DNA from: Aromatoleum toluvorans
GTDB taxonomy: Bacteria; Pseudomonadota; Gammaproteobacteria; Burkholderiales; Rhodocyclaceae
Reading direction: 5' to 3'
NCBI RefSeq assembly: GCF_012910905.1
Contig: NZ_WTVN01000007.1
Coordinates: 1-64,000, forward strand
Length of the DNA stretch: 64,000 nt
Shown here: positions 36,063 to 64,000 of the stretch, in pieces
Layout: each line of letters begins with the position of its first letter
Numbering within the stretch: the stretch's first letter is position 1
Program-made: the position numbers and the translations under genes
Notes under the pieces: model-generated
Told to the model about the DNA's origin: nothing
Seen by the model: only the letters and a program-made list of their open reading frames with translations
Database searches by the model: none

Positions 36063-38660
36063 TTAAACCGTCACGGTCGCCGCAACGTCGCTGAACTCCG
36101 CGATCTGGTCGAAGTTCATGTAGCGATACACGTCCGCCGCCTTGGCATTGACCGCCGCGACCTGCTCCATGTACTCACCGACCGTCGGGATCTTGCCCAT
36201 CAGCGCGCACACGGCGGCGAGTTCCGCCGAACCGAGATACACGCGGGTGTCGATGCCGAGACGGTTCGGGAAGTTACGCGTCGAGGTCGACATCGCGGTC
36301 GAGCCCTTGCGGATCTGCGCCTGGTTACCCATGCACAGCGAGCAGCCCGGCATTTCCATGCGCGCGCCGGACTTGCCGAGCACCGAGTAGTAGCCTTCCT
36401 CGTTCAGGATCATCGCGTCCATCTTGGTCGGCGGGGCGATCCACAGGCGGGTCGGGATGTCCGACTTGCCGTCGAGCACCTTGCCGGCGGCGCGGAAGTG
36501 GCCGATGTTGGTCATGCACGAGCCGATGAAGACTTCGTCGATCTTGTCGCCGGCGACTTCGGACAGCAGCTTCACGTCGTCCGGGTCGTTCGGGCAGGCG
36601 ACGATCGGCTCCTTGACGTCGGCCAGCTCGATCTCGATCACGGCGGCGTACTGGGCGTCGGCGTCGGCCTTCAGCAGTTCGGGCTTGGCGATCCAGGCTT
36701 CCATCGCCTTGATGCGGCGGCCCAGCGTGCGCGCGTCCGAGTAGCCGTTCGCGATCATCCACTTCATCAGCGTGATGTTCGAGCGCATGTACTCGATGAT
36801 CGGTTCCTTGTTCAGCTGGATCGCGCAGGCGGCAGCGGAACGCTCGGCAGCGGCGTCGGACAGCTCGAAGGCCTGTTCGACCTTCAGGTCCGGCAGACCT
36901 TCGATTTCGAGGATGCGGCCCGAGAAGATGTTCTTCTTGCCCTTCTTCTCGACGGTCAGCAGGCCCTGCTTGATCGCGTAGTAGGGGATCGCGTTGACCA
37001 GGTCACGCAGCGTGACGCCGTTCTGCAGCTTGCCCTTGAAGCGCACCAGCACCGATTCCGGCATGTCGAGCGGCATGACGCCGGTCGCGGCGGCGAAGGC
37101 CACGAGGCCCGAGCCGGCCGGGAAGGAAATGCCGATCGGGAAGCGGGTGTGCGAGTCGCCGCCGGTGCCGACCGTGTCGGGCAGCAGCAGGCGGTTGAGC
37201 CACGAGTGGATCACGCCGTCGCCCGGACGCAGCGCCACGCCGCCGCGGGTCGAGATGAAGGACGGCAGTTCGCGGTGCATACGAACGTCGACCAGCTTCG
37301 GATAGGCGGCGGTGTGGCAGAAGGACTGCATCACCATGTCGGCGGAGAAGCCGAGGCAGGCGAGATCCTTCAGCTCGTCGCGCGTCATCGGGCCGGTGGT
37401 GTCCTGCGAGCCGACGGTGGTCATCTTCGGTTCGCAATAGGTGCCCGGCAGGATGCCCTTGCCTTCCGGCAGGCCGCAGGCGCGGCCGACCATCTTCTGC
37501 GCGAGCGAGTAGCCCTTGCCCGGATCGTTCGGTTGCTGCGGCAGACGGAACAGCGTCGACACCGGCAGGCCCAGCGCTTCACGCGCCTTGGTGGTCAGGC
37601 CGCGGCCGATGATCAGCGGAATGCGGCCGCCGGCGCGCACTTCGTCGAGGATGACCAGGGTCTTCAGCTGCGACTCGGCGATGGTGGCGCCGTTCTTGAG
37701 CGCGGTGACCTTGCCGGTCGCCTGGTCGATCTTCAGCTCGATCTCGTCGCCCATGTCCATCTGGCCGGCGTCGATTTCGATCGGCAGCGCGCCCGCGTCT
37801 TCCATGGTGTTGAAGAAGATCGGGGCGATCTTGGAGCCGATGCACACACCACCGAAACGCTTGTTCGGCACGAAGGGGATGTCTTCGCCGGTGAACCACA
37901 GCACCGAGTTGGTCGCGGACTTGCGCGAGGAACCGGTACCGACCACGTCACCGACGTAGGCGATCAGGTTGCCCTTCTTGGCCAGCGCCTCGAGCTGCTT
38001 GATCGGACCGCGCTCGCCCGGCTTGTCGGCGTCGATGCCCGGACGCGGGTTCTTCAGCATCGCCAGCGCGTGCAGCGGGATGTCGGGACGCGACCAGGCG
38101 TCCGGCGCGGGCGACAGGTCGTCGGTGTTGGTTTCGCCGGTGACCTTGAAGACGGTCAGCTTCTGCGAGGCCGGCACTTCCGGACGCGAGGTGAACCACT
38201 CGGCGTCGGCCCAGCTCTGCATCACGGCCTTGGCGTTGGCATTGCCGGCCTTGGCGAGCTCGGCAACGTCGTGGAAGTAGTCGAACACCAGCAGGGTCTT
38301 CTTCAGGCCTTCGGCGGCGACGGCGCCGACTTCGGCGTCGGCCAGCAGGTCGATCAGCGGCTTGACGTTGTAGCCGCCCAGCATCGTGCCGAGAAGCTCG
38401 GTGGCCTTGGCGCGCGAGATCAGCGCACAGGCTTCTTCACCCTTGGCGACCTTGGCGAGGAACTCGGCCTTGACCTTGGCGGCGTCATCCACGCCGGCCG
38501 GCACGCGGTAGGTGATCAGTTCGACGAGGGCAGCTTCCTCGCCGGCGGGGGGATTCTTCAGCAGGGCAACCAGGTCCTGGGTCTGCTGCTTCGACAGCGG
38601 CAGCGGGGGGATGCCGAGGGCGGCGCGTTCGGCGACATGGGCACGGTAGGCTTGAAGCAC
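36063..38660 (-). CDS. acnB: Aconitate hydratase B (bifunctional with 2-methylisocitrate dehydratase)
   Basis: An 865-residue [4Fe-4S] TCA-cycle enzyme. It has the AcnB-specific N-terminal HEAT-like domain and swivel domain before the catalytic core, unlike AcnA. Iron-sulfur cysteines lie in SCMTNIGHF and [11 protein letters not shown] near the C-terminus. AcnB also binds its own mRNA and others when the cluster is lost in E. coli. The start is GTG with AAGGA upstream. It is divergent from acnA across a 345 bp region with an operator-like palindrome. Confidence 0.97.
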
Positions 38661-39005: not shown

Positions 39006-41720
<2,715 letters not shown>

Positions 41721-62997: not shown

Positions 62998-63019
62998 GCA
63001 CAAGTAATCCTGATATAAA
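62998..63019 (+). promoter_or_regulatory. Third copy of the small-RNA promoter element
   Basis: GCACAAG (62998-63004), nine bases, then TATAAA (63014-63019). The spacing is identical to the elements before the two small RNAs. No copy of the 36-base block follows directly; a transcript from here would run into the first small RNA. Confidence 0.5.
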
Positions 63020-63040
63020 AATCTTTTGGGATATTTCTTG

Positions 63041-63069
63041 TTGCGCCGCACAAGGGATTCCAATATAGT
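63041..63069 (+). promoter_or_regulatory. Promoter of small RNA A
   Basis: TTGCGC (63041-63046), 17 bases, TATAGT (63064-63069). Inside the spacer, GCACAAG (63048-63054) lies nine bases before the -10 box, as in the other two copies. Confidence 0.65.
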
Positions 63070-63075
63070 TTGAAC

Positions 63076-63147
63076 CGTCTCCTCCACCCTCCTCCTTTGG
63101 TGTGGATTTAGCCCGAGCCGAAATACCGTGCTCGGGCTTTTTTCTTT
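63076..63147 (+). ncRNA. Small RNA A with anti-Shine-Dalgarno loop
   Basis: Predicted transcript of about 70 bases. A 5' hairpin (stem TCCAC 63083-63087 with GTGGA 63102-63106) exposes the loop sequence CTCCTCCTTT (63089-63098), which is complementary to AAAGGAGGAG and shares CCTCCTT with the 3' end of 16S rRNA. A second CCTCC is at 63081-63085. The 3' part is an intrinsic terminator: GCCCGAGC (63111-63118), loop, GCTCGGGC (63130-63137), then a T-rich run. No start codon or coding potential is evident. Its sibling lies 291 bp downstream. Confidence 0.75.
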
Positions 63148-63331
63148 TTCGGCCCCCGGTTTTCGGGTGCCAAAGCAGAACACCATCATCAACTGCCCCC
63201 GCCGGTACAGCGCGGACCCGGCTCGACGGCCCCGAGCGGATCCGCTTCCGTTGATTGCCTGAATCGCCGCCATCTGCCGCGCACATTGGAACGCCTGATC
63301 CAGCGATAAAAAAATTTGTCGTACAACTTTA

Positions 63332-63360
63332 CTGCATTGCACAAGCGAGGCCGGTAAGAT
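63332..63360 (+). promoter_or_regulatory. Promoter of small RNA B
   Basis: TAAGAT (63355-63360) with GCACAAG (63339-63345) nine bases before it. The -35 position holds CTGCAT (63332-63337), a weak match, so the shared GCACAAG element may be the main determinant. Confidence 0.5.
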
Positions 63361-63366
63361 TCGATC

Positions 63367-63434
63367 CGTCTCCTCCACCCTCCTCCTTTGGTGTGGATTT
63401 AAGCCCGAGCCTCAACCGCTCGGGCTTTTTCTTT
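63367..63434 (+). ncRNA. Small RNA B with anti-Shine-Dalgarno loop
   Basis: Sibling of small RNA A. The block 63366-63401 is identical in all 36 bases, so the same CTCCTCCTTT loop is presented. The terminator has the same stem, GCCCGAGC (63403-63410) and GCTCGGGC (63418-63425), but a different seven-base loop, then TTTTTCTTTT. Conservation of both stems with divergent loops and flanks argues for selection on the RNA. It ends at the stop codon of the convergent LysR gene. Confidence 0.75.
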
Positions 63435-64000
63435 TCAGCCGCCGCTCGGCGCGCTCAGCAGGGCCCAGATCCGGTCGACCATCGGGTTGCTGTTTTCGGC
63501 GGCGCGATGCAGGCGGACCTCCAGCGGGCAGGTCCATTGCGCCGGCCCCGCCGCAACCAGGCGGCCTTCGCCGATCTCGCGGCCGACGCAACTCTCCGGC
63601 AGCCAGCCCAGGCCGTGGCCTTCCAGCACCATCGCCTTCAAGGCCTCGGACATGTGGGTGTCGAAGGAGCGGTCGAAATGGCAGCGCGCGTTGGCGAGCA
63701 GGATCATTTCCACGACGTGCCCGAGGTAGGTCCCGGACGAATACGCGAGGAAAGGCACCGCCGCCTCCACCCGCCCCGGTAGCTTGTAGCGCGGCCGGCC
63801 GTCTTCGCGGGGGGCGGACAGCGGCAGCATGCGGTCGGTCGCGAGCGTGATGTACGGGAAACGCACCGGATCGAGCAGCATCGGCAGTTGCGGGTGGTGG
63901 TAGGCGATCACGAGATCCGTTGCGCCTTCGATCAGTGCGCTCGCGCCTTCGGGCACGTTCACCGCACCGACGCGCGCGACGACGTTGCCCAGCGCCTCCT
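63435..64000 (-). CDS. LysR-type transcriptional regulator (partial, C-terminal part)
   Basis: The final 188 or so codons of a LysR-family regulator; the gene runs off the window end, so the HTH domain is not seen. The visible part is the substrate-binding domain: GATDLVIAYHH, MLPLSAP, FLAYSSGTYLGH and EALKAMVLEGHGLGWLPESCV, which is the usual second-subdomain signature. The ligand and targets are unknown. Its stop codon touches the terminator of small RNA B. Confidence 0.85.
   Translation of the reverse strand, partial: EALGNVVARVGAVNVPEGASALIEGATDLVIAYHHPQLPMLLDPVRFPYITLATDRMLPLSAPREDGRPRYKLPGRVEAAVPFLAYSSGTYLGHVVEMILLANARCHFDRSFDTHMSEALKAMVLEGHGLGWLPESCVGREIGEGRLVAAGPAQWTCPLEVRLHRAAENSNPMVDRIWALLSAPSGG

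Follow-up and report, generated by a model that had tools for sequence, protein, structure and literature searches.

Tandem RF02278 small RNA genes of Aromatoleum toluvorans carry PhaR-type promoter operators and may couple carbon storage to carbon intake

Two tandem blocks near the end of a 64,000-nt stretch of Aromatoleum toluvorans DNA (contig NZ_WTVN01000007.1, positions 1 to 64,000; here, the window) are genes of RF02278 double-hairpin small RNAs (sRNAs), and a PhaR-type site overlaps the predicted -35 element of each. A survey outside the host family shows that this operator is associated with PhaR across the sampled order. On these grounds, we consider it probable that the siblings are PhaR-repressed, are released when PHB accumulates, and then curb carbon intake. 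The RNAs themselves are already known: they belong to RF02278, described in Burkholderia.

The two copies are identical over exactly 36 nt (63075-63110 and 63366-63401) at an offset of 291, as the original prediction had stated. Both exceed the curated Rfam cut-off of 50 bits for RF02278, copy 1 (63076-63145, plus strand) with 61.2 bits and copy 2 (63367-63433, plus strand) with 64.0 bits; in a search of the whole window, the E-values were 7.4e-10 and 1.4e-10, respectively, and the full model length was covered. This match rules out the new sRNA family that had been considered possible. The relatives include many from Aromatoleum, Azoarcus, Thauera, and Zoogloea, in agreement with the proposal of sibling sRNAs with anti-Shine-Dalgarno elements in Rhodocyclales.

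Each copy consists of a 5′ hairpin (63083-63106 in copy 1 and 63374-63397 in copy 2, plus strand) followed by an intrinsic terminator (63110-63145 and 63401-63433, plus strand). The sequence predicts an RNA of ~70 nt, with a 5′ end for copy 1 probably near 63075/63076. Copy 1 folds at -29.2 kcal/mol (z -5.44) and copy 2 at -27.2 kcal/mol (z -5.39), and for each copy 0 of 200 shuffles was as stable. In the minimum free energy (MFE) structure, the loop of the 5′ hairpin is the CU-rich anti-Shine-Dalgarno sequence UCCUCCUUU; 5′ of the hairpin, GUCUCC is likewise CU rich and unpaired. The loop had been expected to display ten letters complementary to a ribosome-binding site (RBS), of which nine are in the MFE loop and the first C is paired. 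The terminator stem, GCCCGAGC/GCTCGGGC, is common to both copies and the loops differ, also as foreseen. Compensatory stem changes around a constant loop had been named as support for the pair. In an alignment of 27 copies, two-sided changes keep the terminator stem paired at 7 pairs, whereas the 5′ hairpin is nearly invariant and therefore gives no covariation signal either way.

Other families scored below their cut-offs. Copy 1 reached 23.4 bits against NmsRb (RF02877; cut-off, 52), to which copy 2 gave no match at E values up to 1; copy 2 reached 18.7 bits against MmgR (RF00519; cut-off, 41); and anti-hemB, ncS16, and SorY were all under cut-off. This subthreshold likeness to anti-hemB, NmsRb, ncS16, SorY, and suhB/mmgR fits a shared anti-Shine-Dalgarno design, not membership. 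The suggested counterpart of Neisseria NmsR thus stands as a resemblance in the expected mode of action but not as a family assignment.

The genome (4.8 Mb, 117 contigs) contains five RF02278 copies above the cut-off. Four are on the plus strand of the same contig (C95), starting at 63076, 63367, 66149, and 66405, with copies 3 and 4 ~2.8 to 3 kb downstream of copy 2 and beyond the window; the fifth is on the minus strand of another contig (C26:126-191). Between the two pairs lie a lysR-type regulator gene (Pfam), whose 3′ part occupies 63435-64000 on the minus strand (whole gene, L006:1536-2441), and then, outside the window, a lyase gene of the aspA/fumarase family. The array is followed by a U32-peptidase-family gene. 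The same gene order with 2+3 copies is found in another genome of the genus (G044), in Aromatoleum tolulyticum (L226), A. evansii (L255), and A. toluclasticum (L272), and in Azoarcus sp. Aa7 (L229). The array of A. toluolicum is split over L265 and L218, A. diolicum (L217) has lysR and aspA with one copy only in the stretch examined, and a further genome of the genus (G100) has three dispersed copies. At E ≤ 0.001, RF02278 is present in 113 of 121 host-family genomes (90 above cut-off) and, in the order as a whole, in 244 of the 399 genomes sampled (144 above cut-off). A tandem pair was also observed in another family (f8) at G127:C1:1646160-1646602, in a genome with nine matches; the tandem arrangement is thus not limited to Aromatoleum.

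Reading the sequence upstream of copy 1 predicts a sigma70-type promoter with a -10 of TATAGT (63064-63069) and a -35 of TTGCGC (63041-63046) at a spacing of 17. A site matching the published PhaR motif, TGCGCCGCA (63042-63050, within TTGCGCCGCACAA at 63041-63053), overlaps this -35. Copy 2 has its own predicted promoter of the same spacing, with a -10 of TAAGAT (63355-63360) and a weak -35, CTGCAT (63332-63337), which is overlapped by the PhaR-type site TGCATTGCA (63333-63341); all of these elements are on the plus strand. By eye, an A-rich, UP-element-like tract precedes copy 2 (63305-63319, plus strand), a similar one precedes copy 1 (63012-63026), and GATAAAAA-type tracts recur in several copies of the class B defined below; they may have a UP-like function. 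At 62998-63019, upstream of copy 1, GCACAAG-N9-TATAAA occurs a third time; here it is followed by no sRNA block and looks like the sRNA promoter standing alone. Copy 4 (L005:1501-1572; C95:66405-66476) has TTGCACAACGCAAC in place of an exact PhaR-type site, and no exact site is present at the final copy of the G044 array either. The last array copy may be regulated differently.

The host genome encodes one PhaR and four phasin genes, and TGC-N3-GCA occurs within ~155 nt upstream of the phasin match in three of the four. The 13-base pattern TTGCNNNGCAMAA is found at 15 places in the genome, compared to 8 for the reversed control; these places include array copies 1 and 3 and one phasin promoter, and one site lies directly before a gene that we take to be MaoC-like. 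Since most of the 13 loci examined for this pattern are without a gene assignment, by itself the pattern has little power to define a regulon. Two adjacent TGC-N3-GCA palindromes are located at L067:1501 (G000:C51:24458), upstream of what is presumably a gene for a 2-hydroxyacyl-CoA dehydratase/benzoyl-CoA reductase-type subunit, which is possibly PhaR-controlled.

Within the host family, two promoter classes were distinguished. In class B, the promoter immediately precedes the RNA, with a -35, 17 nt, a -10 of the form TANNNT, and then CGTCTCCTCC or TGTCTCCTCC; both window copies belong here, and their predicted promoters were aligned with those of other class B copies. The C26 copy falls into class A, in which the RNA is preceded by a leader of some 50 to 60 nt (estimated by eye) and is then similar to S17 of Bordetella, which is processed (RNase E; PMC11722255). 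The family set comprised 123 copies, namely, those above the Rfam cut-off among the matches listed plus L204; 6 fetched loci without the core by regular expression were excluded. TGC-N3-GCA occurs within 150 nt upstream of 101 of the 123 (Markov shuffle mean, 11.2), or 100 of 122 without L204, a copy included on account of a site seen beforehand. The strict form, TGC[AG]N[CT]GCA, is found for 98/123 copies at -120 to 0 versus 19/123 at -240 to -121. In class B, the palindrome overlaps the -35 and ends 25 to 27 nt before TCTCCTCC in 31 copies (shuffle mean, 0.5; maximum, 5 in 300), a count that includes L155, which otherwise has a class A layout. In class A, 64 other copies have the site at 54 to 99 nt (59 of them at 74 to 96), upstream of the -35 and often between A-rich arms. 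Among the remaining 28 copies, which have the exact site at neither distance, 6 have it elsewhere and 17 have a one-letter variant. The link to PhaR was first noticed on ~56 upstream sequences of this family, and for this reason only the set from other families is a fair test. Co-occurrence with PhaR inside the host family was discarded as a test, as PhaR is present in 117 of its 121 genomes and the comparison is uninformative.

PhaR (PF07879) was detected in 266 of the 399 genomes of the order. The other-family set, chosen by Rfam score and PhaR status, consisted of 88 RF02278 copies, 57 in PhaR-positive and 31 in PhaR-negative genomes; it was assembled from 30 copies from PhaR-negative genomes, 30 from PhaR-positive genomes by place, and 28 as loci. 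Copies left out include those of class B in G236, G226, and G183, whose site had been seen beforehand. A genome absent from the PhaR-positive list was counted as PhaR negative, an assignment that may be wrong for incomplete genomes. The strict motif was present within 150 nt upstream of 40/57 PhaR-positive copies versus 0/31 PhaR-negative copies (Fisher P = 1.2e-11), and the loose motif was present at 42/57 versus 2/31 (shuffle means, 5.2 and 1.3). In a control stretch from -300 to -151, the strict motif was found at 6/57 and 1/31 and the loose motif at 14/57 and 3/31. Counted by genus, the strict motif occurs in 33/39 PhaR-positive versus 0/13 PhaR-negative cases (P = 4.3e-8), and counted by family in 10/11 versus 0/8; these P values overstate independence because PhaR-negative genomes cluster in few lineages. 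Three sites (G467, G300, and G264) were known beforehand, without which the strict count is 37/54; the loose site of G462 was also known beforehand. Family f4 has the site in 9/9 PhaR-positive copies, and the site is absent from its single PhaR-negative copy. The 17/57 PhaR-positive copies without a strict site include 6/9 in f8, 4/6 in f31, and 2/3 in f43, and the site is present in 0/1 PhaR-positive copies of f48.

A different element, TATTAGA, lies within 150 nt upstream of 25/31 PhaR-negative copies (L327 to L356 and L311) versus 3/57 PhaR-positive copies, which suggests another conserved promoter or control in the PhaR-negative lineages. Lineages differ in promoter type, of which PhaR may be just one correlate; the TATTAGA count slightly lowers our confidence in the PhaR-repressed reading. 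We regard as unlikely, though deserving of weight, the alternative that these are RF02278 sRNAs whose operator serves another factor, or on which PhaR acts as an activator or antisilencer, with no induction by PHB accumulation. The motif is a short palindrome, some PhaR-positive lineages do not have it, the class A site is upstream of the -35, and Sinorhizobium meliloti PhaR has been reported to activate as well as repress genes (PMC12542648); yet the motif tracks PhaR across the sampled order and equals the footprinted PhbF motif, and the class B site overlaps the -35, a usual place for repression.

Published work on PhaR provides the model for the repression that we favor. PhbF of Herbaspirillum has the motif TG[N]TGC[N]3GCAA, derived with MEME and footprinted at the phbF promoter; the protein attaches to PHB granules and lowers expression from phaP1 and phbF reporters (PMC3206438). 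For S. meliloti PhaR, the consensus combines a YGCRNYGCR core with A/T-rich arms, and PhaR/AniA, reported as a repressor, binds the promoter of the sRNA gene mmgR (PMC12542648); MmgR is raised on loss of PhaR/AniA (PMC12542648; reviewed in PMC8401924). In Burkholderia, ncS03, ncS05, and ncS27 rise 8.0-, 6.9-, and 4.3-fold in glucose medium (PMC5688073, Table 2), the signal for accumulation of these sRNAs is described as unknown (PMC5688073), and an upstream motif is common to three of the four members (PMC5688073, Fig. S3). We suggest that this shared motif is the PhaR-type operator, which, if real, would explain the rise in glucose medium. The terms PHB and polyhydroxy do not occur in the main texts of PMC11722255 and PMC5688073 as available to us, nor does PhaR in that of PMC11722255. 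We found no report of the proposed PhaR-type control of RF02278 sRNAs among the open-licence papers listed; subscription papers or supplements could hold one.

The preferred circuit would operate as follows. When the cell contains little PHB, PhaR would occupy the TGC-N3-GCA operator over the -35 and keep the sRNA off. Under carbon excess, PHB granules would form, PhaR would move to them, as published PhaR biology suggests, and the sRNA would be made. Its 5′ CUCC stretch and CCUCCUCCUUU loop would then pair with the purine-rich RBSs of predicted target mRNAs for carbon uptake and activation, blocking translation and slowing intake, a mode of action borrowed from work on NcS27, S17, and NmsR. 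With four copies around lysR-aspA, more of the sRNA would be made. The weak -35 of copy 2, the inexact site of copy 4, and the class A site, from which PhaR could also activate, speak against this circuit, as do PhaR-positive copies without a strict site and the predicted target places, 12 of 26, that do not fit carbon intake.

Candidate targets were sought as complements of the loop before start codons; these searches had a reversed-pattern control only, and strong Shine-Dalgarno sequences are themselves common at such positions. A perfect loop complement, AAAGGAGGA followed after 3 to 11 nt by ATG, occurs at six places in the genome and at zero in the reversed control. Five of the six open into a frame, and the sixth stops after one codon. 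The five encode an AMP-binding acyl-CoA synthetase (Pfam), with a 14-nt complement over the RBS; a LivK-type binding protein, near-identical by eye to the Pfam-scanned L394; and, by reading, a porin-like protein, a FixJ-type response regulator, and a restriction-type-nuclease-like protein. Three of the five duplexes have energies of -39.3, -38.9, and -34.8 kcal/mol and the other two of -28.7 and -28.3 kcal/mol, compared to a median of -21.6 kcal/mol for a background of 112 starts that includes the candidates; these energies ignore accessibility.

A 12-nt complement, CCAAAGGAGGAG, before ATG was retrieved 27 times across the host family, corresponding to 26 distinct places in 23 of 121 genomes, with 6 control counts. 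By Pfam or likeness to a scanned relative, 14 of the 26 places fit carbon intake or activation: four AMP-binding, three Peripla_BP_6, two DUF4212, two DUF485, and one each of DctP, FadL/TodX, and acyl-CoA dehydrogenase. We take DUF4212 and DUF485 to be small proteins that accompany sodium symporters, those for acetate among them. The other 12 do not fit; they comprise an ATP-sulfurylase, polyphosphate kinase 2, a chalcone-isomerase-like protein, an FAD-binding protein, and eight that have no Pfam match, are unscanned, or are too short for genes. A conserved 105-aa protein (L396, L397, and L408; minus strand, 1189-1503) has a 12-nt loop complement before its start in three genomes, and a Pfam scan of L396 gave no match. 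The predicted trend toward carbon uptake agrees with the target lists of NcS27 and S17.

That full-loop complements recur before uptake genes also speaks against a reading to which we give only a slim chance, that of general growth-arrest ("toxic") RNAs that broadly titrate or block ribosome binding with no defined metabolic regulon. The family owes its name to growth inhibition in Escherichia coli (PMC4603805), and ncS27 overexpression slows growth (PMC5688073), but the inhibition is not constant: in E. coli overexpressing S17S, exponential growth is unaffected and the transition to stationary phase suffers only modestly (PMC11722255), and the effects of NcS27 vary with the substrate (PMC10987360).

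The two aconitase genes of the window (39006-41720, plus strand; 36063-38660, minus strand) had been put forward as possible targets, and they turn out to be poor candidates. Their RBS duplexes (-18.3 and -15.9 kcal/mol, with the acnB start taken as the GTG of the longest frame) are weaker than the background median. The values for aspA (-20.1 kcal/mol), lysR (-21.4 kcal/mol), and the phasins (-24.4 to -18.3 kcal/mol; nearest starts, -21.5 to -18.3 kcal/mol) are near that median, and these genes were likewise set aside. Pairing was thus not favored for the TCA genes checked, i.e., the two aconitases and the aspA/fumarase-family gene. That the siblings are functional NmsR equivalents, stringent-response-controlled repressors of the TCA cycle with the nearby aconitases among their targets, is marginally slimmer still as a prospect: tandem siblings with two anti-Shine-Dalgarno stretches do recall NmsR, which represses six TCA enzymes under RelA (PMC5362039), but the NmsRb score is far under its cut-off, aconitase pairing is poor, and the Burkholderia work, as far as its text was available, found no complementarity to TCA genes (PMC5688073). 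Decayed, untranscribed repeats are scarcely credible: there are five copies above the cut-off, promoters and terminators can be read from the sequence, relatives show compensatory changes in the terminator stem, and relatives are expressed (PMC5688073, PMC11722255).

Beyond the window, we lean, with less assurance than for the local circuit, toward the view that RF02278 serves PHB-making Betaproteobacteria as the RNA branch of their PhaR regulon, throttling carbon uptake and activation as the store fills. If so, a widespread sRNA family would be tied to carbon storage, which would be relevant to hosts for bioplastic production. MmgR would then show the same wiring with a different RNA, implying that the circuit arose twice. 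In the PhaR-less lineages, the promoters are without the operator and mostly have TATTAGA instead.

The closest known relatives are ncS03, ncS05, ncS27, and ncS62 of Burkholderia cenocepacia, S17 of Bordetella pertussis, and Hsnc059, Hsnc063, Hsnc086, and Hsnc107 of Herbaspirillum, with which the RNAs described here have in common their sequence, two hairpins, a CU-rich 5′ end and loop, and complementarity to RBSs. Multiple copies per genome also occur in Burkholderia and Herbaspirillum; the Burkholderia copies are dispersed and not tandem (PMC5688073), whereas here four form an array around lysR-aspA. NmsR/RcoF and NgncR_162-163 of Neisseria, whose likeness to RF02278 is already published (PMC5688073), are also tandem siblings in which an unpaired CU stretch and a CU-rich loop are directed at RBSs. 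They differ in their TCA targets, RelA control, and three stem-loops (PMC5362039), compared to two here counted from the inferred 5′ end. MmgR (RF00519, alpha-r8) of Sinorhizobium meliloti is an sRNA likewise tied to PHB, and the promoter of its gene carries a PhaR/AniA operator, but it is a different, alphaproteobacterial RNA that limits phasins and PHB, whereas phasin starts here pair no better than background. Finally, the PhaR/PhbF regulon itself (phasins, phbF, and other PHB genes) has the same TGC-N3-GCA operator, also at phasin promoters of this genome; in Herbaspirillum, the targets described in the available part of the source are promoters of PHB metabolism, with no sRNA named among them (PMC3206438).
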